Made by a program: the position numbers and the translations under genes. The notes beneath the pieces are model-generated. The model did no database searches, was not told the origin of the DNA, and worked only from the letters and a program-made list of their open reading frames with translations. This document shows, in pieces, positions 1 to 19,938 of a stretch of DNA of 21,493 nt. The stretch's first letter is position 1. Every line of letters begins with the position of its first letter. The DNA comes from a virus, in the IMG/VR virus record IMGVR_UViG_3300021074_000131, positions 1-21,493 of that record; one strand, given 5' to 3'.

Positions 1-364
1 CAGCAGCAGCATAAGCAGCAGTAGCATAAGCAGCAGCAGCATCAGTATTCTTGGTTTTTACTGATGGATTTGCTAAATAGTCTTTTGCAGCTTCAATAGC
101 TTTTCGTGGTCTGTCGTCGGTAGGATACTTCTTTTCGTATATATCAATGACTTGTTCAGCTGCAAATATGGCATATTGGACTTTCTGCTTTTTGTTCATA
201 ACACGAACTATCAACCAATTCGCCCAATCCAGTTTATCAGCTTCAATGAGTTTATTCAGAAAGTCTATTGCAGGCATTCCGATTAATTTGTTTTCTGTTA
301 CCCACACCATGCCTGATTTACAGGCGTTATGAGATACAAGGAATTTTGTTGTTATTGTTTTCAT
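1..364 (-). CDS. Imm5-like putative immunity protein, 3' end cut off by window
   Basis: The frame is open from an ATG at 364 to the left edge, giving 121 codons without a stop. It reads MKTITTKFLVSHNAC near the start. The core has WANWLIVRVM, then YAIFAAEQVIDIYEKKYP, then RPRKAIEAAKDYL, the pattern of proteins annotated as 'putative immunity protein' (Imm5-like) in phages and bacteria. After residue about 105 it becomes an Ala/Tyr repeat (AAAAYATAAYAAA) encoded by GCT-rich repeats, typical of the family and probably helical. The start overlaps the stop of the gene at 361-630 as ATGA, so translation is probably coupled. The family name does not establish an immunity function in this phage. Family assignment is from memory of the motif. 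Confidence 0.65.
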   Translation of the reverse strand, partial: MKTITTKFLVSHNACKSGMVWVTENKLIGMPAIDFLNKLIEADKLDWANWLIVRVMNKKQKVQYAIFAAEQVIDIYEKKYPTDDRPRKAIEAAKDYLANPSVKTKNTDAAAAYATAAYAAA

Positions 365-630
365 GGTTTTATTTGTTTGGTTGATAATGATTCTAAATGG
401 CATCTGACTATATCGTCAAGTGCCGTTATGGTGTATTTGTTTTTTTGAACTTCAAGCTGGTTCAACTCGTGATATTTTGTTACGATTTCATTTCTTATCT
501 GTGCATTTGCAAGGTGTAGTTCAGATTCAAGCCATTTAACATAATCAACAACATCGTTCACAATCCATCCTTTTTCATCAAAGATGAGTTTGCCTGTTTC
601 TTGAGTAAATTGTTCTCTATAATTTGTCAT
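361..630 (-). CDS. Small hypothetical protein (89 aa)
   Basis: An 89-residue protein starting MTNYREQFTQETGKL, with a YVKWLESEL helix near residues 30-37 and a second amphipathic helix around residues 40-63. Small proteins with a YREQF...ETG...Y(V/S)xWLE pattern are common in phages of Bacteroidetes, but I know of no function. Both ends overlap their neighbours by the 4-base ATGA arrangement: its ATG shares bases with the stop of the GH16 gene, and its stop overlaps the start of the Imm5-like gene. It therefore sits in the middle of one translationally coupled run. No signal peptide, membrane segment or metal-binding motif is visible. Confidence 0.7.
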   Translation of the reverse strand: MTNYREQFTQETGKLIFDEKGWIVNDVVDYVKWLESELHLANAQIRNEIVTKYHELNQLEVQKNKYTITALDDIVRCHLESLSTKQIKP

Positions 631-1394
631 AACACCTTTTTATAAATTTTTACATACTCTACAAGACATTCATTTGGAAAACTTAATGTTCCATTAGGTT
701 TATATCCATTCTTGACAGCTATTTGAACAATGAGATACATTGGTATATCGGGAATATAGTTCCCTGTATAACTATATACTAATATATTGTCTAAATAGAA
801 GTTTATATAGGTGGGTTGCCAATCTACAGCGTAAATATGATAATCAAGAGATAGATCAACCTTAGAAGTGATTATTTGTGTATCACGAAGTTGCATAACT
901 CCATCAACACGCTTATGTACACTGGATGTAAATTGATTTGATGCGAGATTCATAAATTCCGCAAAATCAATTTCTCCATCCCACAAAAGTCCTACAAGCC
1001 AAACTCCACTGTAATTATCAATGCCATCTTTTGCTACCTTCATTTTCACTTCCCAATAGCCATATTTCTGAACACAACTTTTAAATGTTGTAATCATTCC
1101 AGCCTTAATCTGAGGCTCCCCGGAAGCAGTATTAAGATCATTGGTTAATATGCAATTGTTGTTTGCCTGTCTCACCTGTGAGGGCTTCCAAATAACATAA
1201 TCATCTGGAGGATCATTTTTAATTAAGCTGTGTGTTACAGGATTTCCGTAACATTCCATTGTTTCCCATTTATCATTAGGAAATGCCTGAGGAACATCAA
1301 AATCATCTGAAAATACCAATTCATATCCTGTTTTATCAACTGGAAAAACAGGAGGTTTTGGTTTTGGTTTTGGTTTGAATATATTTAAGCACAT
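627..1394 (-). CDS. Glycoside hydrolase family 16-like protein (255 aa)
   Basis: A concanavalin A-like glucanase fold is suggested by ordered GH16 signatures. YELVFSDDFD lies near the N terminus, then YGYWEVKMKV, then the catalytic cluster GEIDFAEFM with E141, D143 and E146 (nucleophile, assisting Asp, acid/base in the E-x-D-x-x-E form), then YHIYAVDWQPTYINFYLDN, and a final VEYVKIYKK strand. I chose the ATG at 1394 because the longer frame up to 1529 runs through the neighbouring gene that ends at 1399; the extension also lacks any GH16 feature. The first 20 residues hold a KPKPKPKPP linker encoded by a repeated hexamer. No signal peptide is seen. The family cleaves beta-1,3/1,4-glucans or galactans. 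Here it could act on capsule or another surface glycan, but that is inference. Its place among small non-structural genes, away from the virion module, is unusual for a depolymerase. Confidence 0.8.
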   Translation of the reverse strand: MCLNIFKPKPKPKPPVFPVDKTGYELVFSDDFDVPQAFPNDKWETMECYGNPVTHSLIKNDPPDDYVIWKPSQVRQANNNCILTNDLNTASGEPQIKAGMITTFKSCVQKYGYWEVKMKVAKDGIDNYSGVWLVGLLWDGEIDFAEFMNLASNQFTSSVHKRVDGVMQLRDTQIITSKVDLSLDYHIYAVDWQPTYINFYLDNILVYSYTGNYIPDIPMYLIVQIAVKNGYKPNGTLSFPNECLVEYVKIYKKVL

Positions 1395-1398
1395 AAGT

Positions 1399-1707
1399 TT
1401 ATTTATTAATCCATCCCGGACAATTAGTTTCAATAATACGTTTATGATTTTCCAACATATACTCAAGATATTCAATCTTCTTGAGTATTTCACGCTCAAT
1501 TTCTCCGTGTGTGTTATCAACATCAGCAATACAATCCCTCACATCCCAATTATCATCAAGGGAGTATTCTCTTTGATTTATAATATGTAAAAGAACCTCT
1601 GCATGTACAACAGCTCTTTGCTCAACATTACAGCTTGTGCCATTGCTGCTAATTATTCCCTGTAAAGCAGCGATAGCACCTCTTTGAATAAATTCTTTAT
1701 TATTCAT
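1399..1707 (-). CDS. Small hypothetical protein (102 aa)
   Basis: I take the start at the ATG at 1707 (MNNKEFIQRGAIAAL), which overlaps the TGA of the upstream gene as ATGA. The longer frame from 1731 would intrude on that gene. The protein has a small-residue N-terminal helix, a Cys at about residue 26, and a long C-terminal helical part rich in Glu and Lys (HGEIEREILKKIEYLEYML) that could form a coiled coil. It ends 4 bases before the GH16 start. I do not recognise the family. Confidence 0.65.
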   Translation of the reverse strand: MNNKEFIQRGAIAALQGIISSNGTSCNVEQRAVVHAEVLLHIINQREYSLDDNWDVRDCIADVDNTHGEIEREILKKIEYLEYMLENHKRIIETNCPGWINK

Positions 1708-1931
1708 AACATTTTTAGTTTTTCTTCCCAAAATTTTGTCACTTCCTTTACAACATCTTGTGATTTGGCAAATACTATTGTTTTACCATCTGAAAGATGT
1801 ATAGGTATTTTGTTAGAAACATCTCCAGAGAGGAAATGCTTCTTGGTTAAGGTATTCTGAATAGTATGTTGGATAGCAGAGCCTATGCCATGTTTGGTCT
1901 TACGCTCTTGAACTCTGGAATTCTTGTTCAT
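1704..1931 (-). CDS. Small hypothetical basic protein (75 aa)
   Basis: A 75-residue protein beginning MNKNSRVQERKTKHG. The first third is strongly basic, and the C-terminal third (VVKEVTKFWEEKLKML) looks like an amphipathic helix. A clear Shine-Dalgarno, AAGGAGA, lies 7 bases before the ATG on the minus strand, which supports the start. It heads a coupled run (1931 to 1), and a 15-bp inverted repeat sits between it and the gene upstream. Function unknown; the basic N terminus would be compatible with nucleic acid binding, but nothing more specific is visible. Confidence 0.65.
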   Translation of the reverse strand: MNKNSRVQERKTKHGIGSAIQHTIQNTLTKKHFLSGDVSNKIPIHLSDGKTIVFAKSQDVVKEVTKFWEEKLKML

Positions 1932-1958
1932 TATTCTGTCTCCTTGAAGATCTTTCTC

Positions 1959-2014
1959 CTTATAGGGAGATAGCTCAAAGATATTAAAATTTCTTCAAAC
2001 TATCTCCCTGTAAG
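1959..2014 (-). repeat. 15-bp imperfect inverted repeat in intercistronic gap
   Basis: The arms are 1959-1973 and 2000-2014, reading CTTATAGGGAGATAG and CTATCTCCCTGTAAG on the plus strand. They pair over 15 positions with one mismatch around a 26-base AT-rich loop. The stem starts 6 bases after the stop of the gene at 2021-2191 and ends 27 bases before the ATG at 1931. No U-tract follows on the minus strand, so a simple intrinsic terminator is unlikely. An intercistronic stabiliser, RNase III site or attenuator would fit. Confidence 0.6.
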
Positions 2015-2020
2015 ATGATA

Positions 2021-2191
2021 TTATACAGCGTTTTCAAGCTGTGTTATAATTCCCTTGATTAAGGATATTTCAGGATTTTGCAAATTTTCTTTTCGCACAA
2101 TTCTCCTTGCATAACGCAATAAAGAATCAGCTCTTCCTGCAGCCCTGAGCTCTTTATTTATAACCAATGTTTTAATTTCTGTTGCTTTCAT
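2021..2191 (-). CDS. Small hypothetical basic protein (56 aa)
   Basis: This open frame runs from the ATG at 2191 to a TAA at 2021-2023. It starts MKATEIKTLVINKEL and contains a very basic segment, AAGRADSLLRYARRIVRKE, then an acidic/polar tail. It fills the otherwise empty space between two accepted genes, in the same direction and with neat spacing to both. The basic helix could bind nucleic acid or a partner protein, but I do not recognise the family. No strong Shine-Dalgarno precedes it. Confidence 0.6.
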   Translation of the reverse strand: MKATEIKTLVINKELRAAGRADSLLRYARRIVRKENLQNPEISLIKGIITQLENAV

Positions 2192-2202
2192 ATTGTTTAG
2201 CT

Positions 2203-2430
2203 TTAGGTGTTTAAATGTTTTTGTTTATTTGCACATGTGTGCCATAATACATGAAGCTCATATAAATATTCCTTATCAAAGGAACAAGCATCATCATATT
2301 TAGCTTTGAATATATCAATCATATTGTCTGCTGAATGAAGCTGTTGATTTGTCTTACAGCTTTCTATGGACTTTTTTATCTTCTCAAAAGCAGCCCGTCT
2401 CTCTATTTTATCTGGAATTTTTCTCATCAT
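2203..2430 (-). CDS. Small hypothetical helical protein (75 aa)
   Basis: I set the start at the ATG at 2430 (MMRKIPDKIERRAAF), which overlaps the TGA of the previous gene as ATGA; the longer frame to 2454 would overlap it more deeply without need. The protein is mostly helical and charged, with KIKKSIESCKTNQQLHSADNMI and a C-terminal YLYELHVLWHTCANKQKH. Two Cys and two His lie in the last part, but their spacing is not a known zinc motif. Function unknown. Confidence 0.65.
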   Translation of the reverse strand: MMRKIPDKIERRAAFEKIKKSIESCKTNQQLHSADNMIDIFKAKYDDACSFDKEYLYELHVLWHTCANKQKHLNT

Positions 2431-2615
2431 TTCTTCTTTACATTGTTCCACCATATTTCAAATGTATGAGAAGGAAGATTTGCTTCATTAGCATGTTTAC
2501 AAAGATCCTTCACTTCCTCTTCAGAATAATAGAATACCTTGCTCTTACGTTTGCTATTGTATTCAGCCAGCATTTCGTGTAGGCTTTCAGTAACATCATC
2601 ACATGACTTTCTCAT
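2427..2615 (-). CDS. Small hypothetical protein (62 aa)
   Basis: A 62-residue protein starting MRKSCDDVTESLHEML, with a central basic patch (NSKRKSKVFYYSEEEVKDLC) and ending in WWNNVKKK. A GGAGG Shine-Dalgarno lies just upstream of the ATG at 2615, inside the 3' end of the 36-aa gene, whose TGA shares one base with this ATG (TGATG). The downstream gene begins within its stop (ATGA). This tight packing supports all three being real. I do not recognise the family. Confidence 0.65.
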   Translation of the reverse strand: MRKSCDDVTESLHEMLAEYNSKRKSKVFYYSEEEVKDLCKHANEANLPSHTFEIWWNNVKKK

Positions 2616-2725
2616 CAGTGCCTCCTCTCCGGTTCAAGATAGCCATTCTTCATTCTCAACATCATTCCATCTATTTCGTCTATTAGACGTTCAATAGCTT
2701 TTTCTAATTCTTTAATTGCTTTCAT
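2615..2725 (-). CDS. Very small protein (36 aa)
   Basis: The frame from the ATG at 2725 to the TGA at 2615 encodes a 36-residue helix starting MKAIKELEKAIERLID and ending PERRH. The regular spacing of Leu and Ile suggests a short coiled coil. A good Shine-Dalgarno (TTAAGGAGA) precedes the ATG by 7 bases, matching other left-arm genes, and its stop overlaps the next start as TGATG. Function unknown; a small oligomerising or host-binding peptide is one possibility. Confidence 0.6.
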   Translation of the reverse strand: MKAIKELEKAIERLIDEIDGMMLRMKNGYLEPERRH

Positions 2726-2743
2726 AATTTTTCTCCTTAAAGA

Positions 2744-2947
2744 TTAATGAAAAAGTAAAAATCCTTCAATATTTCCGCTTGGTAAGAAGTATCTGTCTTT
2801 ATGTCCAAAATGGTTACTAAAAACAAACTCTATTGTTCCAAAGATACAAGTGAAACTTTCTATCTCACCATCATTCCATACAATGCTTCTGCAAGGTCTG
2901 ATAATTTTATTACCATCAACCTTATATATTATTGTTGGTTGTTTCAT
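2744..2947 (-). CDS. Small hypothetical beta-rich protein (67 aa)
   Basis: A 67-residue protein, MKQPTIIYKVDGNKI at the start, with alternating hydrophobic stretches (IVWNDGEIESFTCIFGTIEFVF) that suggest a small beta-sheet fold. Its ATG overlaps the stop of the upstream membrane protein gene as ATGA. It ends 18 bases before the 36-aa gene, whose Shine-Dalgarno occupies that gap. No family recognised. Confidence 0.6.
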   Translation of the reverse strand: MKQPTIIYKVDGNKIIRPCRSIVWNDGEIESFTCIFGTIEFVFSNHFGHKDRYFLPSGNIEGFLLFH

Positions 2948-3165
2948 GTCATATCAATGTATTCGTTTTCATATTCTTCAGAGAACTGATAGCTTCTCCA
3001 ATAGATGATTGCTGCAGTATATCCAATTAGGGATAACCCAAGCATAATGAAGAATGCTTCTGTATCTATAACGAATTCTTTGTACAAATTACAGGCGCAC
3101 ATTACAAATAATGTACTAAGAATGTACATTACAATAGATGTTATTTTAAGTGCTTTCTTTTTCAT
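2944..3165 (-). CDS. Small two-helix membrane protein (73 aa)
   Basis: A basic start (MKKKALKIT) is followed by a hydrophobic helix at about residues 9-27, a short loop, a second hydrophobic helix at about 36-56 (AFFIMLGLSLIGYTAAIIYW), and an acidic tail (SEEYENEYIDM). By the positive-inside tendency, both ends are likely cytoplasmic, though the tail's acidity leaves this open. It could be a superinfection-exclusion or host-membrane-modifying protein, but there is no specific evidence. It overlaps the next gene by ATGA. A sequence CAAACTTA at 3226-3233 could be a minus-strand -7 box (TAAGTTTG) for it, although the -33 spacing (22) is off. Confidence 0.65.
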   Translation of the reverse strand: MKKKALKITSIVMYILSTLFVMCACNLYKEFVIDTEAFFIMLGLSLIGYTAAIIYWRSYQFSEEYENEYIDMT

Positions 3166-3237
3166 ATTTTAGTCTTAAATTGCGTTAATGCCATATTATT
3201 CGTCCAAATGAAAATACCCATCAAACTTAAAGATATC

Positions 3238-3438
3238 TTATGATTCATTATCAAACTTCTGTTGAGCATCAATTGTATCTATAATCCAATTAAGTATATC
3301 CATTCTATCTATTTCCCCATTCAATGGAGAAGTGAGAACAAGCCTATCTTGACAAAAGAACAACTTATATCCATTATACTCTTTTAAGAAGTGAGATTCA
3401 ATGTTTATCCCACTTCTTGTATGTACTATCTGTTTCAT
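3238..3438 (-). CDS. Small hypothetical protein (66 aa)
   Basis: A 66-residue protein beginning MKQIVHTRSGINIES, with a beta-like middle (YNGYKLFFCQDRLVLTSP) and a C-terminal helix (MDILNWIIDTIDAQQKF). It is coupled to the upstream gene by an ATGA overlap at 3435-3438. No motif links it to a known family. Confidence 0.6.
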   Translation of the reverse strand: MKQIVHTRSGINIESHFLKEYNGYKLFFCQDRLVLTSPLNGEIDRMDILNWIIDTIDAQQKFDNES

Positions 3439-3629
3439 ATAGAAAAGCTTAACTTATTAACACTTCGTACATTACTTAATGTCACCTTCGTATTGACATC
3501 TTCTATTTCAATCACCTCGTAATAAGCAACTTCCTTGCCTCTCACAATAGATGTATGATGAAGATGTCTCTCGTATCGCTTTCCTTTGTATTCACACTCA
3601 GGATGAATACCTAAATACTTTAATGTCAT
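3435..3629 (-). CDS. Small hypothetical protein (64 aa)
   Basis: I use the second in-frame ATG at 3629 (MTLKYLGIHPECEYK) rather than the one at 3644, because a perfect GGAGG lies 8 bases before it and the upstream ATG overlaps that same Shine-Dalgarno. The protein has many His and Tyr residues early (KRYERHLHHTS) and beta-like strands later. It is the first gene of a coupled pair and sits downstream of a long AT-rich regulatory stretch. Function unknown. Confidence 0.6.
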   Translation of the reverse strand: MTLKYLGIHPECEYKGKRYERHLHHTSIVRGKEVAYYEVIEIEDVNTKVTLSNVRSVNKLSFSI

Positions 3630-3637
3630 AATGTTGT

Positions 3638-3642
3638 CCTCC
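3638..3642 (-). promoter_or_regulatory. Shine-Dalgarno GGAGG that decides the start at 3629
   Basis: On the minus strand GGAGG is followed by 8 bases and then ATG. It touches the alternative upstream ATG at 3644, so initiation there would not use it. Confidence 0.6.
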
Positions 3643-3803
3643 ATAAAGTTTAATTATTAATGTATATCATTGTGAATACTGTTTTATATCATCTCTGACG
3701 TTGATATATATCAATAAAAGAACGTATGTATGTCAACTATATCACTGACATAAACACATAAATCAGTTGATATTAATACACTCATTAATATATATCTCTC
3801 ATT

Positions 3804-3947
3804 TCATTCATTAATATATCTCATCCTCAATTCTTTGACTATGTCATAAATTTCCGCTAACTTTGCTGCAGTGAGCTGAAGAATGATTAGCGAACACCAT
3901 ATCCCACCAAGAAGCTATAATTCCTTAAAAGAGCAGTTTATACACAT
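3804..3947 (-). pseudogene. Possible relict small gene with in-frame TAG
   Basis: From the ATG at 3947 the frame reads MCINCSFKEL, then TAG at 3915-3917, then 36 open codons including LQLTAAKLAEIYDIVKELR, to a TGA at 3804. The part after the TAG is strikingly helical and charged for chance sequence. No Shine-Dalgarno is visible. It starts 18 bases after the gene at 3965-4282 ends. It could be a decayed gene, a readthrough product or a chance frame; at this base composition runs of 36 codons are not rare. Confidence 0.25.
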
Positions 3948-3964
3948 ACTCAGGTGCAAGAAGA

Positions 3965-4282
3965 TTATAATAATAACTGAGGAATTTCAGGATATGAATG
4001 AAGTTGCCACCATTCTGAGCCATCATATTCTCCTCTATCAAACCATTGACCACCTTCAAGCCATATGGTTCCATCAACTTTCTGACCACCAAAGCCATTG
4101 TTGTAATTGAAATCAATCTCCTTAAGAAATTTCTGATAATCCTCTTCGGAATATCCTTTCTTCAGAGTATAACACCAGGGCTTTTTATCCTCTTCAAAAC
4201 TCCAGAAATCAGCCTGTTGTAAAATTGCACAAAGAACCACAAGTCCTTTAGTACGTTCTAAAAATTCTTGTTTTGCTTTCAT
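3965..4282 (-). CDS. Hypothetical protein (105 aa)
   Basis: A 105-residue protein starting MKAKQEFLERTKGLV. An N-terminal helix (residues 1-25) is followed by an aromatic-rich C-terminal half with GFGGQKVDGTIWLEGG and WFDRGEYDGSEWWQLH. This Gly/Trp-rich pattern looks like a compact beta fold, and I believe similar proteins occur in other Bacteroides phages, without an assigned function. AGGAGG lies 4-5 bases before the ATG. The shorter frame at 3925-4116 in another phase is a shadow. Confidence 0.75.
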   Translation of the reverse strand: MKAKQEFLERTKGLVVLCAILQQADFWSFEEDKKPWCYTLKKGYSEEDYQKFLKEIDFNYNNGFGGQKVDGTIWLEGGQWFDRGEYDGSEWWQLHSYPEIPQLLL

Positions 4283-4297
4283 ACATCCTCCTTAAGA

Positions 4298-4693
4298 TTA
4301 AATGCAAAATTTGTCAATTGATATCAATTTCTTTATTCTATCTACCAGATAGATAGCTCTGAGATTCTGCACATTTTCATTCAGGTCATGCAGACATAAG
4401 AGAACTGGAAGAGGAACAAGAACAATGTCCACATCCAACCAATAAGCTTCATTAAGTCTATCCTGACAAGCCTCAGACATCTTCCACTTCTTACTGACAG
4501 AAGTGATATGCACACCACTTACAGTAACATGCTGTTTCTCAACATCCTCATTATCAAGCTTTGTCTCTTCAGCTATTTCATTGGATACTGCAGACAATAT
4601 TGTTCCATCCTCAAACTCAAAAGCATGAGGAGAATTGAAATTAGCTACCCTCAGACCATTGCTGAGAGTGACTATTGGAAATGTATTGTTCAT
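4298..4693 (-). CDS. Conserved-looking hypothetical phage protein (131 aa)
   Basis: It starts MNNTFPIVTLSNGLRVANF, followed by FEFEDGTILSAVS, an N-terminal pattern I associate with a widespread but uncharacterised phage family. The second half contains ACQDRLNEAYWLDVDIVLVPLPV and ends with VDRIKKLISIDKFC. No catalytic motif is evident. AAGGAG lies 7 bases before the ATG, inside a 5' leader with a 9-bp hairpin (4771-4803). The ATTGATATCAAT palindrome falls within its last codons. Function unknown. Confidence 0.75.
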   Translation of the reverse strand: MNNTFPIVTLSNGLRVANFNSPHAFEFEDGTILSAVSNEIAEETKLDNEDVEKQHVTVSGVHITSVSKKWKMSEACQDRLNEAYWLDVDIVLVPLPVLLCLHDLNENVQNLRAIYLVDRIKKLISIDKFCI

Positions 4694-4770
4694 TTTATTT
4701 CTCCTTAAAGGTTTAATTCATAATTAGTTTCGCTAATGCTCATCAGTACAGGACTCACACCTGCAGACTG

Positions 4771-4803
4771 CCTTATAGCTCCCAGCCTCAGCCTGCTATA
4801 AGG
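4771..4803 (-). promoter_or_regulatory. Hairpin in 5' leader of the 131-aa gene
   Basis: CCTTATAGC (4771-4779) and GCTATAAGG (4795-4803) form a perfect 9-bp stem with a 15-base loop. It is flanked on both sides by GGACT...ACACCTG elements (4751-4763 and 4802-4820). It lies about 80-110 bases upstream of the ATG at 4693. A structured leader controlling that gene is possible. I tried to fit a tRNA here and could not close an acceptor stem. Confidence 0.4.
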
Positions 4804-4820
4804 ACTTTATGTTACACCTG

Positions 4821-4979
4821 TTAATTGAAAGCTGACACCAATAACAGGGATGATTTTTTTAATCTACCATATCCTCTCATATCTGTCAGAACATGAGCAT
4901 TCTGGCTACAAACTTTACTCTCATCCTGCAGGTAACAATGCTACAGAACTACCATCCAGTTAGTTGTTTTAGCTTTCAT
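4821..4979 (-). pseudogene. Relict or readthrough gene with in-frame TAG
   Basis: From the ATG at 4979 the frame reads MKAKTTNWMVVL, TAG at 4941-4943, then 39 codons including HCYLQDESKVCSQNAHVLTD and MRGYGRLKKSS, to a TAA at 4821. Its ATG overlaps the TGA of the preceding minus-strand frame as ATGA, the same junction style as intact neighbours, which argues it was once a real gene. Whether the TAG is a nonsense mutation, a suppressed codon or a sign that the frame is chance cannot be settled from this window. Confidence 0.35.
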
Positions 4980-5092
4980 ATCATTTCAGATATGACACAT
5001 GCACAACCATTCTTCTTATTATACTCCGAACTTTTAAGAGTAGGCGTGAAACAGAGCCTATTATTATCTCTCCTATATAAAGGAACAACTCT
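4976..5092 (-). pseudogene. Protein-like frame lacking a start codon
   Basis: Directly in frame after the TGA of the 67-aa gene, 38 codons stay open to a TGA at 4976-4978. The frame includes RRDNNRLCFTPTLKSSEYNK. A Shine-Dalgarno-like AGGAGAGATAAT precedes AAT AGG CTC where a start codon would be expected, but there is no ATG, GTG or TTG there. Its stop overlaps the next ATG as ATGA. This looks like a gene that lost its start, or a C-terminal extension of the 67-aa protein reached by readthrough. Confidence 0.25.
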
Positions 5093-5296
5093 TCACATTC
5101 CTTTATATACAAATGTATATTCCTTCATCGTGACAACACTACCAACAGTCTCTTCACGCATAATACTAATTGACTCTATATAACAAGGATCAATCACATT
5201 ATTATCAGTAGAAACATCACCTATACTATTAACATGTAATCCATAGGTGTCGATGATAGCATCACCAATAATACCCAATCTAATTATATTCTCCAT
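5093..5296 (-). CDS. Small hypothetical protein (67 aa)
   Basis: A 67-residue protein starting MENIIRLGIIGDAII, mostly hydrophobic and beta-like, ending MKEYTFVYKGM. A GGAGG lies 5 bases before the ATG at 5296, which supports it over the overlapping plus-strand frame at 4893-5183. A VEK-like charged segment is absent, and there is no signal peptide or metal site. The frame after its TGA remains protein-like for another 38 codons. Function unknown. Confidence 0.6.
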   Translation of the reverse strand: MENIIRLGIIGDAIIDTYGLHVNSIGDVSTDNNVIDPCYIESISIMREETVGSVVTMKEYTFVYKGM

Positions 5297-5773
5297 ATAC
5301 CTCCAATTGATTAACTCGTGAAACTCTTCCTTATAGAGAGATATTCATTCTAATAGACATTACTCTTCATAGAGATAGACATAAAGCCATACCATTATCC
5401 ATAATGATGTTGTTTTGATATCAATATTATCACTTTAATATCAAGGAAGGATATTATAAGGCTGAAAAACAGATACTTATCATCAATCAATAGTAATAAA
5501 TTCATCTGATTGAAATCTAGACCATTGACAAGCATCCTTATAAAACTCCGGATAAGCACTCTCAATAAAATCAATAACAAGACATATAGTTCCAACACTC
5601 TAATAATACAATTACCTTTCTCAACAAGACTAACTTATTCATACGATAGTTTATTAGTAAAGCTATAGTTTAATATCAATAACACATTAATTTGATAGTG
5701 TTTTGATATCATTATAATATCAAGAAGAGGATGTTTCCTCAACTAAAACACCAATGTTATCAAGGGTTTCCAA
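5297..5773. other. Sparse AT-rich stretch with ATATCA motifs and a broken frame
   Basis: No intact gene is visible on either strand. Two related elements, TTTTGATATCAATATTATC near 5412 and TTTTGATATCATTATAATATC near 5701, are each followed by CAAG(A/G)A and a GGAT. A third TAATATCAATA lies near 5671. A minus-strand relict frame occupies 5483-5634. The Leu/Ile-rich 67-aa frame at 5395-5598 appears to be a shadow in another phase. Confidence 0.4.
5483..5634 (-). pseudogene. Frameshifted relict of a small gene
   Basis: On the minus strand VSLVEKGNCIIR is open from about 5634. One base-phase change near 5596-5605 then continues into GTICLVIDFIESAYPEF and CQWSRFQSDEFITID, to a TGA at 5483-5485. 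The second part has no usable start in its own frame. Joined, the two parts resemble one small phage protein. The upstream end is also interrupted by a TAA. Decay by frameshift is the simplest reading; a programmed shift is possible but no slippery site is seen. Confidence 0.3.
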
Positions 5774-5944
5774 TCAATAGTACTTTATTCTATAGATCCA
5801 TATTCCCTTATAGATTACTCTCTTTGTAGACAGACATTTGTTCCTTAGAGTATAATAATTAAGATCTTTACTCCACTTACAAGCCTGTATTAAGGACCTG
5901 TATTCTGTCAATTTACCTGTTTTTGGATCAATTGTAACTATCAT
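5774..5944 (-). CDS. Small NUMOD-like protein (56 aa)
   Basis: The frame from the ATG at 5944 to the TGA at 5774 reads MIVTIDPKTGKLTEYRS, then QACKWSKDLNYYTLRNKC, then VIYKGIWIYRIKYY. The order 'short strand with Gly turn, small helix with a helix-turn-helix-like YYTLRN, final K-G-x-x-I-Y-R-I strand' recalls the NUMOD-type DNA-binding modules found in homing endonucleases, and parallels the VCINSLSGEV...HGWMIVK segment of the GIY-YIG protein at 6923. A -7-like TATATTTG (minus strand, 5946-5953 region) lies just upstream, with no good -33 box. I call it intact but cannot assign a role; it may be a remnant of an endonuclease gene. Confidence 0.5.
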   Translation of the reverse strand: MIVTIDPKTGKLTEYRSLIQACKWSKDLNYYTLRNKCLSTKRVIYKGIWIYRIKYY

Positions 5945-6041
5945 ATAGCTGTTTTAGGCTACAAATATAATACAAAAACCGGTCAATACTTAGGATTCTT
6001 ACCACTTTTATAAAACTATTTCTCACACTCCATGGATACAT
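5928..6041 (-). CDS. Doubtful very small frame (37 aa)
   Basis: From an ATG at 6041 the frame reads MYPWSVRNSFIKVVRIL and ends LKQLYDSYN at a TGA at 5928, overlapping the 56-aa gene by 17 bases. There is no Shine-Dalgarno. Upstream in the same frame another ATG is separated by one TGA. It may be a small gene, a relict or chance. Confidence 0.2.
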   Translation of the reverse strand: MYPWSVRNSFIKVVRILSIDRFLYYICSLKQLYDSYN

Positions 6042-6046
6042 ATATA

Positions 6047-6092
6047 ATAATGTATAGAGAACAACCAATGATAATCACTCCCTATACATTAT
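6047..6092. repeat. Perfect 11-bp inverted repeat
   Basis: ATAATGTATAG (6047-6057) and CTATACATTAT (6082-6092) are exact reverse complements separated by 24 bases; pairing extends into flanking TA repeats with a one-base bulge. The left arm borders one copy of the GTTGTTC...TATA motif. It could be an operator, a cruciform-prone site or an RNA hairpin. Confidence 0.5.
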
Positions 6093-6124
6093 ATATATAG
6101 TAACATTTGAGTGGCTAACTCTCT

Positions 6125-6253
6125 TTACGGATTTACATTCCCAAAGCCATAAGGGAAACACCTCTGTACAATTCCATATAACATCTGAAGAGCAATCATT
6201 TGTTCATGCATACCTTCTGATCAGTAATTCAACGCATTATCATCTCTATTCAT
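6125..6253 (-). pseudogene. Small frame interrupted by TGA
   Basis: From the ATG at 6253 the frame reads MNRDDNALNY, TGA at 6221-6223, then SEGMHEQMIALQMLYGIVQR and CFPYGFGNVNP, ending TAA at 6125. The second part alone could start at its own ATG (6211), giving 28 aa with a weak AGAAGG before it. The continuity across the TGA suggests a nonsense mutation in a 42-residue protein, or a Trp-coded TGA. The first ATG lies immediately after a GTTGTTCCCTATATA motif. Confidence 0.3.
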
Positions 6254-6319
6254 TATATAGGGAACAACTAAGAGTAGGTGATTGGAATATTAAGACCCAC
6301 CCACTCCACCCGATATATA

Positions 6320-6343
6320 AGAGAGAGTCCGAAGACTCTCTCT
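6320..6343 (-). terminator. cUUCGg hairpin terminator of the 133-aa gene
   Basis: On the minus strand a perfect 10-bp stem AGAGAGAGTC/GACTCTCTCT is closed by TTCG in the ultra-stable C(UUCG)G context. It starts 9 bases after the stop codon at 6353-6355. The downstream sequence is TATATA rather than a T-run, so termination may be partial or the hairpin may protect the 3' end. Confidence 0.7.
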
Positions 6344-6352
6344 CTTAATCAA

Positions 6353-6754
6353 TTAGGCAATGAGGCTTTCCAATGCAATGGATTCACCCTTTGCAAGATC
6401 TGCAAGACTGAAACCTTCACTCGGCTTGCCTTCTGGCACAAGAAAGAAAACTCCCTCAGTGTTCTCAATCACCTTCAGATTGAGAAGACTTTTCAAAACC
6501 TCCACTTTCTTAGCTCCTTGTGTCAGTGCCTTACGCACCAATTTGCTAAGTCTTACGCTCAAGGACAACATCTTGGGAGCATCTTCTTCTGTCTCTTTGA
6601 TAAAGAGACATACTCTTGCCTCTCCTTCAATGTTCTTCTGAGAAAATGACAGCACATCAGTTTTTACTAACTGACTTTTGAGTGTACCATGTTCGGTAAT
6701 TTCACTCCAACTCCCTGTCCCTGTTGATTCTACTACTGCTAATTTCAGTTTCAT
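6353..6754 (-). CDS. Hypothetical protein (133 aa)
   Basis: A 133-residue protein beginning MKLKLAVVESTGTGSWSEI. It has a beta-rich N-terminal half (ARVCLFIKE near residues 46-54) and a more helical, Lys-rich centre (LSVRLSKLVRKALTQGAKKVEVLKSL), then a strand pair (VFFLVPEGKPSEGF). It has no Cys-based metal site and no membrane segment. It is the first minus-strand gene from the divergent switch at 6755-6922 and has a strong terminator of its own, so it is probably transcribed alone and strongly. I do not recognise the family. Two plus-strand frames over the same region are shadows. Confidence 0.75.
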   Translation of the reverse strand: MKLKLAVVESTGTGSWSEITEHGTLKSQLVKTDVLSFSQKNIEGEARVCLFIKETEEDAPKMLSLSVRLSKLVRKALTQGAKKVEVLKSLLNLKVIENTEGVFFLVPEGKPSEGFSLADLAKGESIALESLIA

Positions 6755-6922
6755 AACTTTAACTATTTAAGATTAATGACGGGGAATGCCCCCAACTCTT
6801 TCAAATCACCGTGGGGTTGAAGTTGGAGGTCTACTAAGTAGGTACTCACTTAAAAAATTTTAAAAATAAAAATAAATTTTGAAATTTTGGAAATATTCCT
6901 TATCTTTGTAAAAATTTTAGTT
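6755..6922. promoter_or_regulatory. Divergent intergenic switch between left and right arms
   Basis: Minus-strand genes lie to the left and plus-strand genes to the right. It contains a GGGG-AATG-CCCC mini-hairpin (6781-6792) in the leader of the 133-aa gene and a very A/T-rich tract (6850-6880). The plus-strand promoter 6878-6908 is clear; I could not find a matching consensus promoter for the minus strand. crAss-like genomes typically switch direction once between gene blocks, and an origin near such a switch is possible but not shown. Confidence 0.5.
6878..6908 (+). promoter_or_regulatory. Bacteroides-type promoter for the GIY-YIG gene
   Basis: TTTG at 6878-6881, 19 bases, then TATCTTTG at 6901-6908. 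This is an exact match to the primary-sigma promoter form of Bacteroides (TTTG-N19-21-TAnnTTTG). The expected start of transcription is only about 5-10 bases before the ATG at 6923, giving a very short leader. Confidence 0.8.
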
Positions 6923-7801
6923 ATGGGAAAAACAAAGTCTTATCCGGGGATATATCAGATGTTGAATATCCAGAATAAAAAATCATATATTGGTTATTCT
7001 AGAAGTTGTTTAAAAAGAATGCAAACTCATAGAAATCACCTTAGAAAGAATAATCATAAAAATCCACATCTTCAAAGTGCTTGGAATTTTTATGGTTCAG
7101 ATAATTTTATATGTCGTATTATTGAACATTTGGATAACTCATTAAGTAATAAACAATTTGAAGAAGTAGAAATCAAATGGGTATTACATTTTCAGTCTCA
7201 TCTTTCTGAATATGGATATAATAGTGTTCTTCCAGGATTTAAACCCTTAAAAGATGAAGGAGTTAACACTACTCAACGGCAGTTAGTTGAATATGTATGT
7301 ATCAACTCTCTCTCCGGAGAAGTATTATTTCTATCAGGAGTACAAGAGGTAATGAAATCTACATCCATTTCTTCTAATAAGATAGAAGACTTATCTTCTT
7401 ATTGGAAAGGAAAGGGAAGAAGAAAGTCTCTACATGGATGGATGATTGTCAAACAGGAAGATTATAATGAAGATTTTGATTATGTCAAGTATAAAAAGGA
7501 GAAACCATCTGCATATAAATATGGAAGTAAATATACTGCTACAGAGTATTATAGGATTAGAAAGGCTCTTGATCCTACCTACCAGCAAAAGAAAAAAGCT
7601 CCTGAGGATATTATTCCACGTAAGAATAGAAATCTAAAGAGAGTTTCTATTCTTGCCAAGAATATTCTTACAGAAGAAGAGAGAATGTTTTCTATGATAA
7701 AGAGTTGTTATCCAGAGTTTAGTCTGATGAAGGTGAGAAAATGCATCAACAATGAGTATGGTAAATACAAACATAGAGGACATTATTTTAAAAGAGTTTA
7801 A
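6923..7801 (+). CDS. GIY-YIG homing-type endonuclease (292 aa)
   Basis: The N-terminal catalytic domain (about residues 7-104) has the paired strands G9-I-Y11 and Y22-I-G24, the helix LKRMQTHRNHL with the likely catalytic Arg32, an acidic helix with E81 (FEEVEIKWV) as metal ligand, and the closing G-Y-N100. The rest carries two NUMOD-like modules: VEYVCINSLSGEV...LHGWMIVK (about 127-185) and IKSCYPEFSLMKVRKC...YKHRGHYFK at the end. Such proteins nick or cut DNA at a specific site and spread themselves. I start at 6923 because the longer frame (6887) begins inside the promoter. It stands alone at the border of the two arms, so it is a free-standing element rather than intron-borne as far as the window shows. 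Confidence 0.9.
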   Translation: MGKTKSYPGIYQMLNIQNKKSYIGYSRSCLKRMQTHRNHLRKNNHKNPHLQSAWNFYGSDNFICRIIEHLDNSLSNKQFEEVEIKWVLHFQSHLSEYGYNSVLPGFKPLKDEGVNTTQRQLVEYVCINSLSGEVLFLSGVQEVMKSTSISSNKIEDLSSYWKGKGRRKSLHGWMIVKQEDYNEDFDYVKYKKEKPSAYKYGSKYTATEYYRIRKALDPTYQQKKKAPEDIIPRKNRNLKRVSILAKNILTEEERMFSMIKSCYPEFSLMKVRKCINNEYGKYKHRGHYFKRV

Positions 7802-7830
7802 CTTTTTCAATTATAAATTTTCCTTCTCCT

Positions 7831-7861
7831 GTTGACTTTTCACTAAATATGTTTATATTTG
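7831..7861 (+). promoter_or_regulatory. Bacteroides-type promoter of the virion module
   Basis: GTTG at 7831-7834, 19 bases, then TATATTTG at 7854-7861, the same geometry as the promoter at 6878. A TTAACTACAT element follows at 7871-7880, at or just after the expected transcription start, and the ATG is at 7887. Confidence 0.75.
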
Positions 7862-7886
7862 TATGTTCAATTAACTACATACGGAT

Positions 7887-8234
7887 ATGATTGTTCAGAA
7901 ATTGAAAAAGGTGACAGAAGACAATTATCAGTTGGGTGAGAAGTATTATGAGATATTGTCTTCATTGAATTCTCTGGATTTGACAACAAGGGAGATTCAG
8001 CTTGTGGCTTATGCTGCTATACATGGAAATATTTCTTACACACATATTAAGGAGGGATTTTGTGAGAAGCATAATACATCTGTTCAGACGATTTATAATA
8101 TTGTGTCAAAGCTTATAAAGTTGAAGGTGCTCATTAAGGATAATGGGAAGATTAAAGTGAATCCTATTATTGCCCTTAAGTTCAATGACACGATTAAGCT
8201 GGAGATAACATTAAATTTCAACGGAAATGGATAA
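7887..8234 (+). CDS. Winged-helix-like DNA-binding protein (115 aa)
   Basis: Residues 30-95 fit a winged helix-turn-helix: LTTREIQLVAYAAIHGNIS, then SVQTIYNIVSKLIKLKVLIKDN as recognition helix and wing. The family is not certain. It is the first gene of the plus-strand virion module with its own promoter, and overlaps the IHF-like gene by 8 bases. It could be a late-gene regulator or a small terminase subunit, which also commonly uses a helix-turn-helix to bind the packaging site. The sequence alone does not decide. Confidence 0.7.
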   Translation: MIVQKLKKVTEDNYQLGEKYYEILSSLNSLDLTTREIQLVAYAAIHGNISYTHIKEGFCEKHNTSVQTIYNIVSKLIKLKVLIKDNGKIKVNPIIALKFNDTIKLEITLNFNGNG

Positions 8235-8673
8235 GCCTGTTTCTCTTTCTGTTAAGGCATGGATAATACGGAACATGTCTGTAAGGACACAAATGCAGGA
8301 ACGGGAAATAGAGATGATTGTCAATCACCAGTTTGATTCTGCATATACAGCTTTGGAGAGTTGTAATAGTTTGGAGTTCTCGGGATTTGGTAGGTTCTTC
8401 TTTAATAAGTGGAAGGCTCTTAAAAAACTGGAGAAGTTCAAGAGCCAGATAAATGAGTTTAGTCGCATTCTTAATGATCCTTCTTCTACGGAAATCAGGA
8501 AGAGAAATATTGAAATGAAACTACAAATGACAAGAAAGAATTTTGAATATCTAAATACAAAGTTAAATGGATGTACACAAGATCTACGAGGGATGGAGAA
8601 ACAAGTGCTTTCCTCCGAAGGAATTGAAGGACGTGATTCAGAGAGTGACGATGGAGAGGATGATGATTTGTAG
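8227..8673 (+). CDS. IHF/HU-like DNA-binding protein (148 aa)
   Basis: Residues 5-70 follow the IHF/HU fold: helices KAWIIRNMSVRTQMQEREIEMIVNH..., then NSLEFSGFGRFFFNKWKAL, where SLEFSGFGRF matches the conserved strand-turn of IHF (usually E-I-x-G-F-G-x-F). crAss-like phages are known to encode IHF-like proteins near the packaging genes. The long DNA-wrapping arm is short here, and a helical Lys-rich region (65-115) and an acidic tail (ESDDGEDDDL) replace it. The last 107 bases overlap the next gene in another frame. It ends with TAG, one of only two TAG stops in the plus-strand genes. Likely acts in DNA bending during packaging or transcription. Confidence 0.8.
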   Translation: MDKPVSLSVKAWIIRNMSVRTQMQEREIEMIVNHQFDSAYTALESCNSLEFSGFGRFFFNKWKALKKLEKFKSQINEFSRILNDPSSTEIRKRNIEMKLQMTRKNFEYLNTKLNGCTQDLRGMEKQVLSSEGIEGRDSESDDGEDDDL

Positions 8674-8857
8674 GAATTGTCCAGAGAATTCTCAACAACA
8701 TAATAGTATTAGGCCAGATGAACATTGTCTTATTTGTGGATGCACACTTTCAGCAAAGACAGCTTGCTTATCATGTGCTTGTCCTTTATATAAATGGAGA
8801 GAAGTAGTAACATCCCAACAGGAAGAAGAAATGGAACAAAACAATGAGCAAGAATAA
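8567..8857 (+). CDS. Cys-rich zinc-binding protein (96 aa)
   Basis: Eight cysteines lie in the second half: C35 and C38 (CRNC), then C54, C57 and C59 (CLICGC), C67, C70 and C72 (CLSCAC), enough for two zinc sites. RPDEHC...CGCTLSAKTACLSCACPL...W is a pattern I recall in small proteins beside terminase genes in Bacteroidetes phages. The N terminus HKIYEGWRNKCFPPKEL looks like true family sequence, so I keep the start at 8567 even though it overlaps the IHF-like gene by 107 bases. A later ATG at 8651 would shorten but not remove the overlap. Function unknown; possibly a packaging accessory. Confidence 0.75.
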   Translation: MDVHKIYEGWRNKCFPPKELKDVIQRVTMERMMICRNCPENSQQHNSIRPDEHCLICGCTLSAKTACLSCACPLYKWREVVTSQQEEEMEQNNEQE

Positions 8858-9056
8858 ATTGGAGATAAAGAAGGTTCGTTTGAGAGAGTTCATTGAGACA
8901 TTAATGGAGATATACGAGAGTGGTATAGATTATGTTAATATATTGGTGGAGAAAGGAAATCATCAGGATTCTATTTGGATTGTTGGGGATATTGATGATG
9001 AACAGAAGCATACAAAAATTAACGGTGAGAATATTAATTTTGAGGAGCTTACATAA
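8844..9056 (+). CDS. Small hypothetical protein (70 aa)
   Basis: A 70-residue protein beginning MSKNKLEIKKVRLREF, with a basic N-terminal helix and a C-terminal beta-like part (YVNILVEKG...SIWIVGDIDD). It overlaps the Cys-rich gene by 14 bases and shares one base of its stop with the next ATG (TAATG). Its position within the pre-terminase cluster suggests a packaging or DNA-associated role, with no direct evidence. Confidence 0.65.
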   Translation: MSKNKLEIKKVRLREFIETLMEIYESGIDYVNILVEKGNHQDSIWIVGDIDDEQKHTKINGENINFEELT

Positions 9057-9391
9057 TGGCTAAGAAACTAAATAGTTATATTTCAGCAGAGTTGGATTTT
9101 GCTGAGCAGTCCCTTCAAGAGTGGAGGAAGTATATTGAGGCAAATCCTATTGATCAGGTGGAAGACAGATGGGGAAAGAAAGAGATGCCAAAAGGAGGAT
9201 ATGCTTGGGTTGTTACAGCTACAAAGGAACAACAGATTAAATGTATACAAGACACCCTCTCCAGATATTTACAACTCCTTGAGGTTGTTAATAATCTTAG
9301 AGAGAAAGAAGAAGCTAAAATAGAGGTGAGAGGTAAGGTGGAATTAGGCTCTCAAGCAGAACAGTTTTTGAAGAAACGCAATGGAGGATAG
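9056..9391 (+). CDS. Helical protein next to terminase; possible small terminase (111 aa)
   Basis: Mostly helical: ISAELDFAEQSLQEWRKYIEAN at residues 9-30, then a Trp/Gly segment (RWGKKEMPKGGYAWVV), then a long helix IQDTLSRYLQLLEVVNNLREKEEAK that could oligomerise. It lies directly before and overlaps the large terminase gene by 11 bases, the usual place for a small terminase subunit. There is no clear helix-turn-helix, so this is a positional guess; the gene at 7887 is the rival candidate. It ends in TAG. Confidence 0.6.
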   Translation: MAKKLNSYISAELDFAEQSLQEWRKYIEANPIDQVEDRWGKKEMPKGGYAWVVTATKEQQIKCIQDTLSRYLQLLEVVNNLREKEEAKIEVRGKVELGSQAEQFLKKRNGG

Positions 9392-11405
9392 TCAATTACA
9401 AACTATAGATTATAAGGATTGGTACTTAAATCAAAAAAGAATTCCAGATAAACAATCTGTTGAATATGTTTCTTTCTTTGCTTTTCATAAAGAACTTTGT
9501 TTAAATGGGTGTATGATGGAAGGGGAGTATATTAATCCCTTTTTAATGTGGCACTTAAATTTCTGGAATACAGAAGTAGATTATGTTGATGATAGAGGTA
9601 GGATAAGTGATAAATATTCCCATCCTCTTCTAAGAGATAACGAATGGGTGGTTACGAATGAGATAGAAAGAGCACATAAAGAACACAAAGGACTAGTAAT
9701 TTTAGGGTTGCGAAGATTTGCTAAAAGCGTTTTGGAAGCAAGTTATATTGGATGGGGGGCTACGTTTGATGAGAATTCCCAGAATGTTATTGCCGGATTA
9801 AATGCTCCAGATATAAAACTGATTACAGATAAGCTTGATAAGGGGTTGAATTTTCTTCCTGAAGCTTGGAGATGGCAGAGAGTGGAGGATGATTGGAAGA
9901 AACAGGTTACACTTGGAATTAAAACAAGAGCAGGAGAAAGAATACCATTCTCTCAAATTCTTATAAGAAATTTGGATGAAGGGAATAATGAAGAAGCAAT
10001 TGCTGGAACAAAACCACGTAAACTAATTATTGATGAGATTGGAAAAGGGTCATTCTTGAGAGGATTGAAAGCTGCAGAGCCGGGATTTACAACACCATTT
10101 GGATGGGCTTGCTCCCCAATATTGACAGGCACAGGTGGGGATATGAGTAAATTTGGAGATGCCAAAACCCTGATGTTCAATGTTCAGAACTACAATTTTC
10201 TTACATATAATAATGAGAAGGATACAAAGAGAGTACATGGTTTATATCTTTCCTATAAATATAGGATGGAAGCAAAGGAAGACTCCTCATTAGGAAAATT
10301 CCTTAATAAACCAGAGGATAGCGTTTTAAATAAGATTCCAATGCTTGTTTCAAATGAAGAAAAAGCAAAGGAAATTACCACTCATAATTTAGAAGTATTA
10401 AAGAAAGGTAGTGACAGAGTTGTATATCTAAAGGAGAAGATGTATTATCCCTTTGAAGTGGATGATATATTTTCCAATGAGGATACAAACATATTTGATA
10501 TTGAAGCAGCAAAGAGACAAAAAGCAAAACTATTAGCACAGGAGAGAACAGGAATCCCTGTTATTCTCTTCTCTGGAGAAAATGGGATAGCCCACGAATT
10601 TACAGACAAATTACCAATTACAAACTTTCCTCTTAACCCGGGAGATTCAAAGGATGCTCCTATAGTTATATATGAGTTCCCTGTAGACAGTCCTCCTTAT
10701 GGATTGTATGTTGCAGGAGTTGACCCTTATAGGCAAGGACAAGCTAAATATAGTGATTCCCTTGGTTCTGTATACATATATAAAAGGATGCATGATTTGA
10801 CAGGGGAAAAATTTCAGGATATGTTTGTGGCTTCTTATTGTGCAAGACCTGAGAAAAAAGAAACATGGGAAGAACAGGCAAGACTCTTAATTAAATACTA
10901 TAATGCCAGAACCCTCTGTGAAAATGATGAAATCTCCTTTATTGAATATATGAAAGCAAAAGGGGATGCTCATTATCTGGAAGCACAACCAAGATGGTTA
11001 TTGGAAATTATTCCAAATACAACAGTGCATAGAGAATATGGTGTTCACCGCACTGCAACTAAAGTGATAGATTATCTCCATGGATGTTTTAAAAAATATA
11101 TGGAAGAAATTGTTCATACAGAAAGAGATGAACAAGGAAGTGTAATAAGAGAGATACATGGAATAAATAAAATATTTGATCCTGTCCTCCTTGAAGAGGT
11201 GATACAATATAATGAATTGGGAAATTTTGATAGGATTGTTGCTGCAGAACTTGCTATAGCACAGGCAATTAAGATGGACCCAATTATGGGAAGAGTAGGA
11301 GGAAGTGGAGATGTAAGAGTACAGGCAATGAATAGAAAGGTGAATAATCCTCTATTCATGCCATCAAGGAATTTAAGAGGAAAACAACGAAGGTTATTTA
11401 CATAA
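9381..11405 (+). CDS. terL: Large terminase subunit (674 aa)
   Basis: This is the motor and nuclease that packages DNA into the procapsid. The ATPase domain has a divergent Walker A G109-LRRFA-K115-S116, Walker B LIIDE with D218 and E219, and a coupling motif around TGTGGD (249-254). The C-terminal RNase H-like nuclease has D448 in YVAGVDPYRQG, an acidic E514 in TLCENDEI, and D617 in NFDRIVAAELAIAQ as the third metal ligand. About 675 residues is typical of crAss-like terminases. The start overlaps the preceding gene. The Walker A lacks the usual glycine before Lys (FAKS instead of GKS), as in many phage terminases. Confidence 0.95.
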   Translation: MEDSQLQTIDYKDWYLNQKRIPDKQSVEYVSFFAFHKELCLNGCMMEGEYINPFLMWHLNFWNTEVDYVDDRGRISDKYSHPLLRDNEWVVTNEIERAHKEHKGLVILGLRRFAKSVLEASYIGWGATFDENSQNVIAGLNAPDIKLITDKLDKGLNFLPEAWRWQRVEDDWKKQVTLGIKTRAGERIPFSQILIRNLDEGNNEEAIAGTKPRKLIIDEIGKGSFLRGLKAAEPGFTTPFGWACSPILTGTGGDMSKFGDAKTLMFNVQNYNFLTYNNEKDTKRVHGLYLSYKYRMEAKEDSSLGKFLNKPEDSVLNKIPMLVSNEEKAKEITTHNLEVLKKGSDRVVYLKEKMYYPFEVDDIFSNEDTNIFDIEAAKRQKAKLLAQERTGIPVILFSGENGIAHEFTDKLPITNFPLNPGDSKDAPIVIYEFPVDSPPYGLYVAGVDPYRQGQAKYSDSLGSVYIYKRMHDLTGEKFQDMFVASYCARPEKKETWEEQARLLIKYYNARTLCENDEISFIEYMKAKGDAHYLEAQPRWLLEIIPNTTVHREYGVHRTATKVIDYLHGCFKKYMEEIVHTERDEQGSVIREIHGINKIFDPVLLEEVIQYNELGNFDRIVAAELAIAQAIKMDPIMGRVGGSGDVRVQAMNRKVNNPLFMPSRNLRGKQRRLFT

Positions 11406-11417
11406 TAATTAGAAGTC

Positions 11418-14012: not shown

Positions 14013-14105
14013 TGCTATATTACGCACAAAAGTAGAGTGATTTATCATTAAATATGTTTTTTTTAATTAATTTTATTATAATTTTACATTACAAACTGGT
14101 ATAAA

Positions 14106-14114
14106 TAACTACAT
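14106..14114 (+). promoter_or_regulatory. TAACTACAT leader element before scaffold gene
   Basis: TAACTACAT abuts the ATG at 14115. Similar elements precede the genes at 7887 (7871-7880) and 17022 (17006-17016). The 100-base gap before it holds a T8 run and TATAAT-like sequence (about 14080), possibly a promoter for the scaffold and capsid genes, but no TAnnTTTG box. Confidence 0.35.
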
Positions 14115-15356: not shown

Positions 15357-15366
15357 CAATAAAAAT

Positions 15367-15387
15367 TAACCTTAAACACTAAACAAA
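15367..15387 (+). promoter_or_regulatory. A-rich SD-less leader of the major capsid gene
   Basis: TAACCTTAAACACTAAACAAA immediately precedes ATGGCT. Nearly the same leader precedes the gene at 18750. There is no Shine-Dalgarno. A-rich, SD-less leaders fit strongly translated genes in Bacteroidetes. Confidence 0.5.
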
Positions 15388-16941: not shown

Positions 16942-16956
16942 TGTTAATCTGAGAAA

Positions 16957-17016: not shown

Positions 17017-17021
17017 TTTAT

Positions 17022-18718: not shown

Positions 18719-18727
18719 ATTTAATAC

Positions 18728-19913: not shown

Positions 19914-19938
19914 TAAGTTTTTAATTCATAAAAATACC

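Follow-up and report, generated by a model that had tools for sequence, protein, structure and literature searches.

What are the minus-strand reading frames in a sparsely coding stretch of viral DNA, several of which read as protein across a single stop codon? The stretch, which includes positions 4694-6352, lies in a 21,493-base window comprising the whole IMG/VR record IMGVR_UViG_3300021074_000131, probably a fragment. In a PHROG profile comparison of the window proteins, the terminase matched PHROG 6681 and the portal PHROG 6547, which are crAss-like types; by both genes, the window is crAss-like. An earlier interpretation made from the letters alone (the sequence-only reading) had explained the frames as a graveyard, or a recoded set, of small genes. 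We consider the stretch to be, more likely than not, a variable, mostly non-coding, regulatory region in which a single constant gene is accompanied by a decayed copy of itself.

The features that raised the question were all recovered. Intact genes occupy 375 of the 1659 nucleotides (nt) of 4694-6352 (22.6%), and coding density elsewhere in the window is 0.91 (361-3644) and 0.97 (7887-20550). On the minus strand, the TAG codons at 3915 and 4941 and the TGA at 6221 were present, as were a startless frame (4976-5092, ascribed to a start lost near 5060), two frames that need a join near 5600, and an ATGA overlap at 4976-4979. A second record, L002, is identical to the window over 3875-14053 save for positions 4830 and 10388, so the named stops occur in both assemblies. 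Two intact small genes inside the stretch, one of them conserved in relatives, had gone unnamed. Gene direction and GC skew switch near 6.9 kb, and the sparse stretch is the leftward side.

A terminase search yielded 17 loci, 15 of which were compared with the first 9,380 bases of the window; eight of these have less than 5 kb ahead of the terminase. The locus is covered in four distinct phages that carry the constant gene (5774-5944), i.e. the window (with L002), L003/L017 (66.9-kb contig), L022 (117-kb contig), and L036/L035 (117.6-kb contig). Besides L017, six loci have longer upstream DNA (L006, L009, L012, L014, L018, and L020). Coverage of the stretch was counted mechanically, as ATG-initiated open reading frames (ORFs) of at least 50 amino acids (aa) on the gene strand, between hand-chosen borders, one where the first leftward gene ends and the other at the gene block that follows to its left. 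It amounted to 0.42 in the window, 0.53 in L003, 0.27 in L022, and 0.38 in L036 (0.47, 0.53, 0.36, and 0.49 with a 40-aa cut-off). Three related phages are likewise thinly coded here, so sparseness dates back further at this locus and did not arise only through a recent collapse. The small genes beyond the constant gene differ among the relatives. In L003, the DNA on either side matches the window at 84-98% identity, yet 1094 nt take the place of 3663-6014 (2351 nt).

The argument turns on the constant gene and its broken duplicate:

5774-5944, minus strand: constant gene for a 56-aa protein with a predicted beta-beta-helix-helix-beta-beta fold, probably DNA-binding
5483-5640, minus strand: decayed duplicate of the 5774-5944 unit, whose frames (2 and 0) need joining near 5600
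5405-5503, strandless: downstream copy of a tandem duplication, with repeat families D3, D5, and D6; the upstream copy is 5693-5790

Homologues of the constant gene were found at the corresponding place in L003 (45% identity), L022 (48%), and L036 (54%), in a family of 56-59 aa. Between L003 and L022, the ratio of non-synonymous to synonymous substitution rates (dN/dS) is 0.12 (against the window, dS is saturated), and the gene is under purifying selection. Direct repeats in register, spaced 279-288 nt, mark a 285-nt tandem duplication. The duplicate reached a DNA score of 69 against the 5774-5944 unit, and none of 500 shuffles scored as high (maximum 54). At the protein level, three of four comparisons with the constant proteins showed likeness (equalled by 24, 10, and 25 shuffles out of 2000, the 24 being for the intact gene of the window), and the L036 protein showed none (1723 of 2000). 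The DNA of the decayed copy was not significantly similar to L003 or L022 (equalled by 26 and 91 shuffles out of 200); for the intact copy, no shuffle out of 200 was as good in either comparison. The segment 5483-5640 combines homology to an intact gene with a broken frame, the protein support being modest and, against L036, absent. A tandem duplication of the constant unit in this lineage, with decay of the second copy, is thus supported. Decay as previously proposed is supported for one of the five named frames, the one near 5600. The other four were compared with the following features:

6128-6211, minus strand: ORF of 28 codons (MHEQ..) behind TGA 6221, open in L003 and probably without protein selection
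5074-5089, minus strand: GTTGTTCCTTTATATA motif directly behind the stop of a 67-aa gene (5093-5296)
4821-4979, minus strand: frame with TAG 4941 (MKAK..), likely non-coding or a short leader ORF
3730-3898, minus strand: DNA block conserved in L022 (73%), which overlies most of the 3804-3914 frame and extends beyond it

Upstream of the TGA at 6221, the frame is the translation of a conserved block with CTACTCTTAGTTGTTCC; L003 keeps this TGA and has one further stop. In the ORF behind it, the window and L003 differ by 8.5 non-synonymous versus 1.5 synonymous changes, with 4/4/2 at the three codon positions. The lost-start frame begins on the GTTGTTCCTTTATATA motif, and its comparison with the relatives gave weak matches only (best E 0.053; 0.51 in another comparison). 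For the 4941 frame, no homologue was found in relatives (best E 0.40) and no phage match at E <= 1. The lower part of the 3915 frame is like L022 over 26 residues (65%, E 5e-6). The DNA homology passes beyond this frame and through a 1-nt indel inside it, the frame is startless in both the window and L022, and no further record was confirmed, with no phage match at E <= 1. It is not the lost tail of the neighboring 105-aa gene (3965-4282), because that gene ends where its L036 homologue ends. Codon usage, scored as the share of shuffled runs that are equally gene-like, was 0.43 for 4979-5092, 0.44 for 3807-3914, 0.86 for 3918-3986, 0.58 for 6224-6289, 0.95 for 5574-5645, and 0.16 for 4824-4940.

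Related phages without homologous proteins, or uniform substitution across codon positions, had been accepted beforehand as grounds for giving up decay, and for these four frames the findings come close to that: the relatives hold no convincing homologous protein for the 4941 and lost-start frames, the changes behind 6221 are spread over all codon positions, and the homology at 3915 spans an indel. The open frames across stops other than near 5600 are most likely non-coding DNA open by chance.

A regulatory role for the stretch is suggested by the following elements:

6353-6754, minus strand: intact 133-aa gene at the upstream border of the stretch, 93% identical in L003 (dN/dS 0.15)
6319-6344, minus strand: hairpin with a TTCG loop behind the 6353-6754 gene, putative terminator (-18.3 kcal/mol)
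6240-6300, minus strand: conserved, putatively promoter-like block with CTACTCTTAGTTGTTCC.TATATA (motif at 6254-6268)
6048-6091, minus strand: long A+T-rich hairpin with a GTTGTTC motif (6051-6065) in its 3' arm (z -3.2)
3701-3715, strandless: TTGATATATATCAA palindrome, candidate operator among the clustered TTGATAT/ATATCAA sites, identical in L022

The stretch adjoins the switch in gene direction. The transcript of the 133-aa gene would probably be ended by the hairpin behind the gene, and the conserved GTTGTTC/TATA block would probably start a new leftward transcript, whose hairpin-bearing leader would precede the constant gene. The product of this gene would be a small DNA-binding protein, as its predicted fold suggests. 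Beyond it lie small genes that differ from relative to relative, and the constant unit was probably duplicated in tandem before its second copy decayed.

The 6240-6300 block is identical to L003 in 57 of 61 columns and 80% identical over 100 nt in L022. The pattern GTTGTTCN{1,3}TATAYA occurs three times in the window, always inside the stretch, and in none of 100 shuffles, a figure that is flattering because the pattern was derived from those very copies; L003 holds two copies and L022 one. Among viral contigs, CTACTCTTAGTTGTTCC was found in seven stretches, three of them of this lineage. The four others were set aside, those of L026, L029, and L030 lying inside an ORF and L027 having nearly the L030 sequence there. 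A hairpin also stands ahead of the constant gene in L003 (z -5.7) and, weaker and with another sequence, in L022 (z -1.6, 12 of 200). At the end of the first gene, all four phages have a hairpin, and those of L003, L022, and L036 differ in sequence from that of the window; shuffles as good numbered 0 (window), 8 (L022), 64 (L003), and 102 (L036) of 200. A terminator scan of the window, L003, and L022 listed the L022 hairpin only, and no T run follows 6319-6344. TTGATAT/ATATCAA sites lie within 3645-6352 in 11 of 17 cases; in L022, 6 of 11 are found in the stretch, and in L003, 2 of 6. Variable small genes and repeated promoter-like blocks with a stem-loop between them recall the promoter-early stem-loop (PeSL) cassettes in the plastic regions of T4-like phages (see PMC4503421), but the present stretch belongs to another phage group and has only three motif copies, and its promoter role is putative.

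The constant protein is most likely a small regulator; its action on the clustered TTGATAT palindromes is speculative. Its structural model, built from four sequences, has a predicted local distance difference test score (pLDDT) of 81. The best PDB match was the homing endonuclease I-HmuI (1u3e, residues 122-174) with a Z of 5.5 (i.e. below 8; next row 3.2), aligned with a root-mean-square deviation of 2.2 over 51 residues at 26% identity (Foldseek E 1.6); absence of a family from the pdb_via rows does not exclude that family. Among the best 50 of 639 viral-library matches (E <= 10), 14 are named HNH, homing endonuclease, or NUMOD4, all with E > 0.01. According to the model, the protein may have a homing-endonuclease-like DNA-binding fold, as in modules of the IENR1/NUMOD1 type. 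The modeled beta-beta-helix-helix-beta-beta arrangement is like the C-terminal DNA-binding domain of I-HmuI, but here it forms a stand-alone 56-aa protein without a nuclease and without a sequence-profile match. We call it homing-endonuclease-like in fold, and not a member, because sequence profiles reveal no such relationship.

Searches with the constant gene against phages gave only Gordonia phage GAL1 (two records, E 0.3), and its L036 form had no phage match at E <= 1. None was confirmed in one genome from each of 84,980 species, its profile had no match at E <= 1 in ten other loci, and among the 15 compared terminase loci it was seen in L017 only. Two other small genes were considered and rejected: an 81-aa gene in L022, whose proposed paralogy to the constant gene the shuffle comparison did not support, and a 68-aa gene in L003, suspected to be AP2-like, which gave only a weak HNH PHROG match (E 0.008) and no Pfam match.

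Several observations weigh against the regulatory interpretation. No helix-turn-helix or NUMOD profile matched the constant protein, no homing-endonuclease DNA-binding module appeared at E <= 10, and one of four members of its family gave a weak HEPN-like profile match (E 0.024). The neighboring GIY-YIG homing endonuclease was rejected as the source of the gene (profile comparison negative; 35 to 404 of 500 shuffles as good). L036 has no copy of GTTGTTCN{1,3}TATAYA and no enrichment of TTGATAT/ATATCAA sites (1 of 10). A sigma-70 scan returned 24 sites in the window against 15.3 (standard deviation 3.8) without singling out the GTTGTTC blocks, and no excess in L022 (12 vs 10.8) or L003 (15 vs 13.0). 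In the six loci with longer upstream DNA listed above, 500-nt bins close to the junction are thin as well, some more than others, and the constant gene was not found in them; sparseness is thus independent of this gene, since relatives without it (e.g. L020) are also thin. Frames of at least 50 codons with a start and one internal TAG or TGA number five on the minus strand and zero on the plus strand; shuffles gave a mean of 1.33, and five were reached in 6 of 500. Finally, the 3804-3914 frame is the only one of three that is open in both the window and L022.

The last two points speak for the alternative that survives best, namely that the majority of the broken frames descend from small genes that were formerly intact: the excess of single-stop frames is confined to the minus strand, and the 3804-3914 frame is alike in L022 (EIxDIxKELRMRYIN). 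The one duplicate with a broken frame fits as well, as does the somewhat gene-like codon usage of 5486-5599 (0.049), 6128-6220 (0.045), and 4944-4979 (0.020, for 12 codons set against longer null runs). Two of the five single-stop frames are the intact genes 5774-5944 and 5093-5296 plus the run behind their own stops, the tail behind 5093-5296 being the startless frame; among the stop-broken frames named in the sequence-only reading, only that of 4979/4941 belongs to the five. We consider such a graveyard unlikely: no intact version of the frames was found, the 3804-3914 frame recurs only in L022 and is startless there too, the homologues of the 4941 and lost-start frames are missing or weak, and three related phages are sparse in the same stretch.

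A more elaborate proposal, which appears quite improbable, makes the stretch the early control and gene-exchange hub of an undescribed crAss-like lineage, with a reused GTTGTTC/TATA promoter, a homing-endonuclease-type regulator on TTGATAT palindromes, and self-processing or tmRNA-like (transfer-messenger RNA) cargo. The nearest annotated terminase is that of Leptolyngbya phage Lbo-JY46 (41%), followed by Cellulophaga phages (32%) and then gut crAss-like records; every hit, Cellulophaga phi17:2 and the gut records included, is below 60% identity. The host of Lbo-JY46, a cyanobacterium, gives a clue to what this lineage may infect. A near-identity DNA search of the whole window among phages gave no match, and a distant search of 3450-6900 gave five records, all matching inside the 105-aa gene only. 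The publications on crAss-like pseudogenes, early genes, and promoters, within the portions searched, contained nothing on this locus, and a search of titles and abstracts returned no paper on early promoters of crAss-like phages.

It is very unlikely that the open stretches are structured RNAs of a non-coding RNA locus. This alternative includes a hammerhead-type self-cleaving leader:

4722-4773, minus strand: weak candidate for a type III hammerhead ribozyme, its core complete, within the leader that precedes gene 4298-4693

The core with its three stems is present, and 4 of 300 shuffles of the window held one as good, but stems II and III have no more than 2 and 3 bp, respectively, the score with Rfam RF00008 is 24.6 bits (E 0.045 or 0.27) and below the gathering value of 48.5, and the hammerhead descriptor found none in L003, L005-L020, L022, L036, and L044. 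In folding, segment 6014-6353 outdoes its shuffles (z -2.68, 1 of 100), but 4694-4860 does not (z 0.57). RNA genes in relatives also favor such a locus. Leptolyngbya phage Lbo-JY46 (L044, PP438436.1) carries 17 tRNA genes at 4681-9221, upstream of its terminase genes, so RNA genes may commonly settle at this junction. L036 has, in a comparable stretch, a permuted tmRNA of the two-piece type (7961-8224, plus strand) with 46.2 bits for RF04321 (gathering 47; E 5.5e-8 in the stretch), a model that also responds in 13 of 14 control genomes, mostly below its cut-off. Its candidate tag is GNTVEMNRQSFRMAA ahead of a stop, and ARAGORN misses this tmRNA. RF04321 gave nothing above 13.4 bits in the window and eight other related records, and a tmRNA in the window was rejected, its best value of 13.4 bits being at chance level. 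Aquatic phages are known to carry tmRNAs of the two-piece type (PMC9004378); as regards crAss-like phages, the word occurs in PMC6235969 only within a reference title.

Recoding, in which TAG or TGA would serve as a sense codon in this stretch, the way it does in late genes of some crAss-like phages, is already close to refuted and retains next to no probability. There is a precedent in the same broad phage group, judged by the terminase, but according to PMC7886860, reassignment there concerns mostly late genes and is recognized via stops in TerL, MCP, and portal. Here, none of 25 intact genes holds an in-frame stop; their terminal stops are TAA (16), TGA (7), and TAG (2). No tRNA was found in the 21.5-kb window, and no suppressor tRNA was identified in seven related records (perhaps fragments), two of which have one tRNA match each (one Met, the other uncalled by ARAGORN). 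The second stop in the 6221 frame of L003 also argues against recoding.

The remaining intact genes in and beside the stretch are:

5093-5296, minus strand: 67-aa gene, its sole relative found in the same species; a share of 0.031 of null runs equals its codon usage
4298-4693, minus strand: 131-aa gene, its sole relative found in the same species
3965-4282, minus strand: 105-aa gene, member of a small family widespread among phages (PHROG 3972; 258 phage records)

The L036 homologue of the 105-aa gene stands in the same order. The 67-aa gene had no phage match at E <= 1, and the 133-aa gene (6353-6754) no match in PHROG and Pfam at E <= 0.001. Between the divergent gene blocks, the window carries a GIY-YIG homing endonuclease (6887-7801, plus strand; PF01541), which is missing from L003 and occupies the same place in L036 and L005. 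A leftward gene (627-1529, minus strand) has a Glycosyl hydrolase family 16 domain (PF00722). Positions 1-45 hold an alanine/tyrosine-rich repeat (AAYA), the end of a small protein, that is common to L022 (8298-8414) and occurs as short matches in L012, L014, L017, and L020. In the variable stretch of L003, an open frame ending MDKFVIVIMSIFKLLFWIAVVSAISIVFVFLATF (11363-11620, plus strand) that overlaps another small ORF may encode a small membrane protein.

At 33% GC, then, open runs do not prove recoding, even where they somewhat outnumber those in shuffles. What looks like a series of suppressed or broken genes in a densely coded phage can turn out to be a thinly coded, variable, probably regulatory region common to relatives. 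The small constant protein and the DNA motifs are candidate regulators for crAss-like phages.

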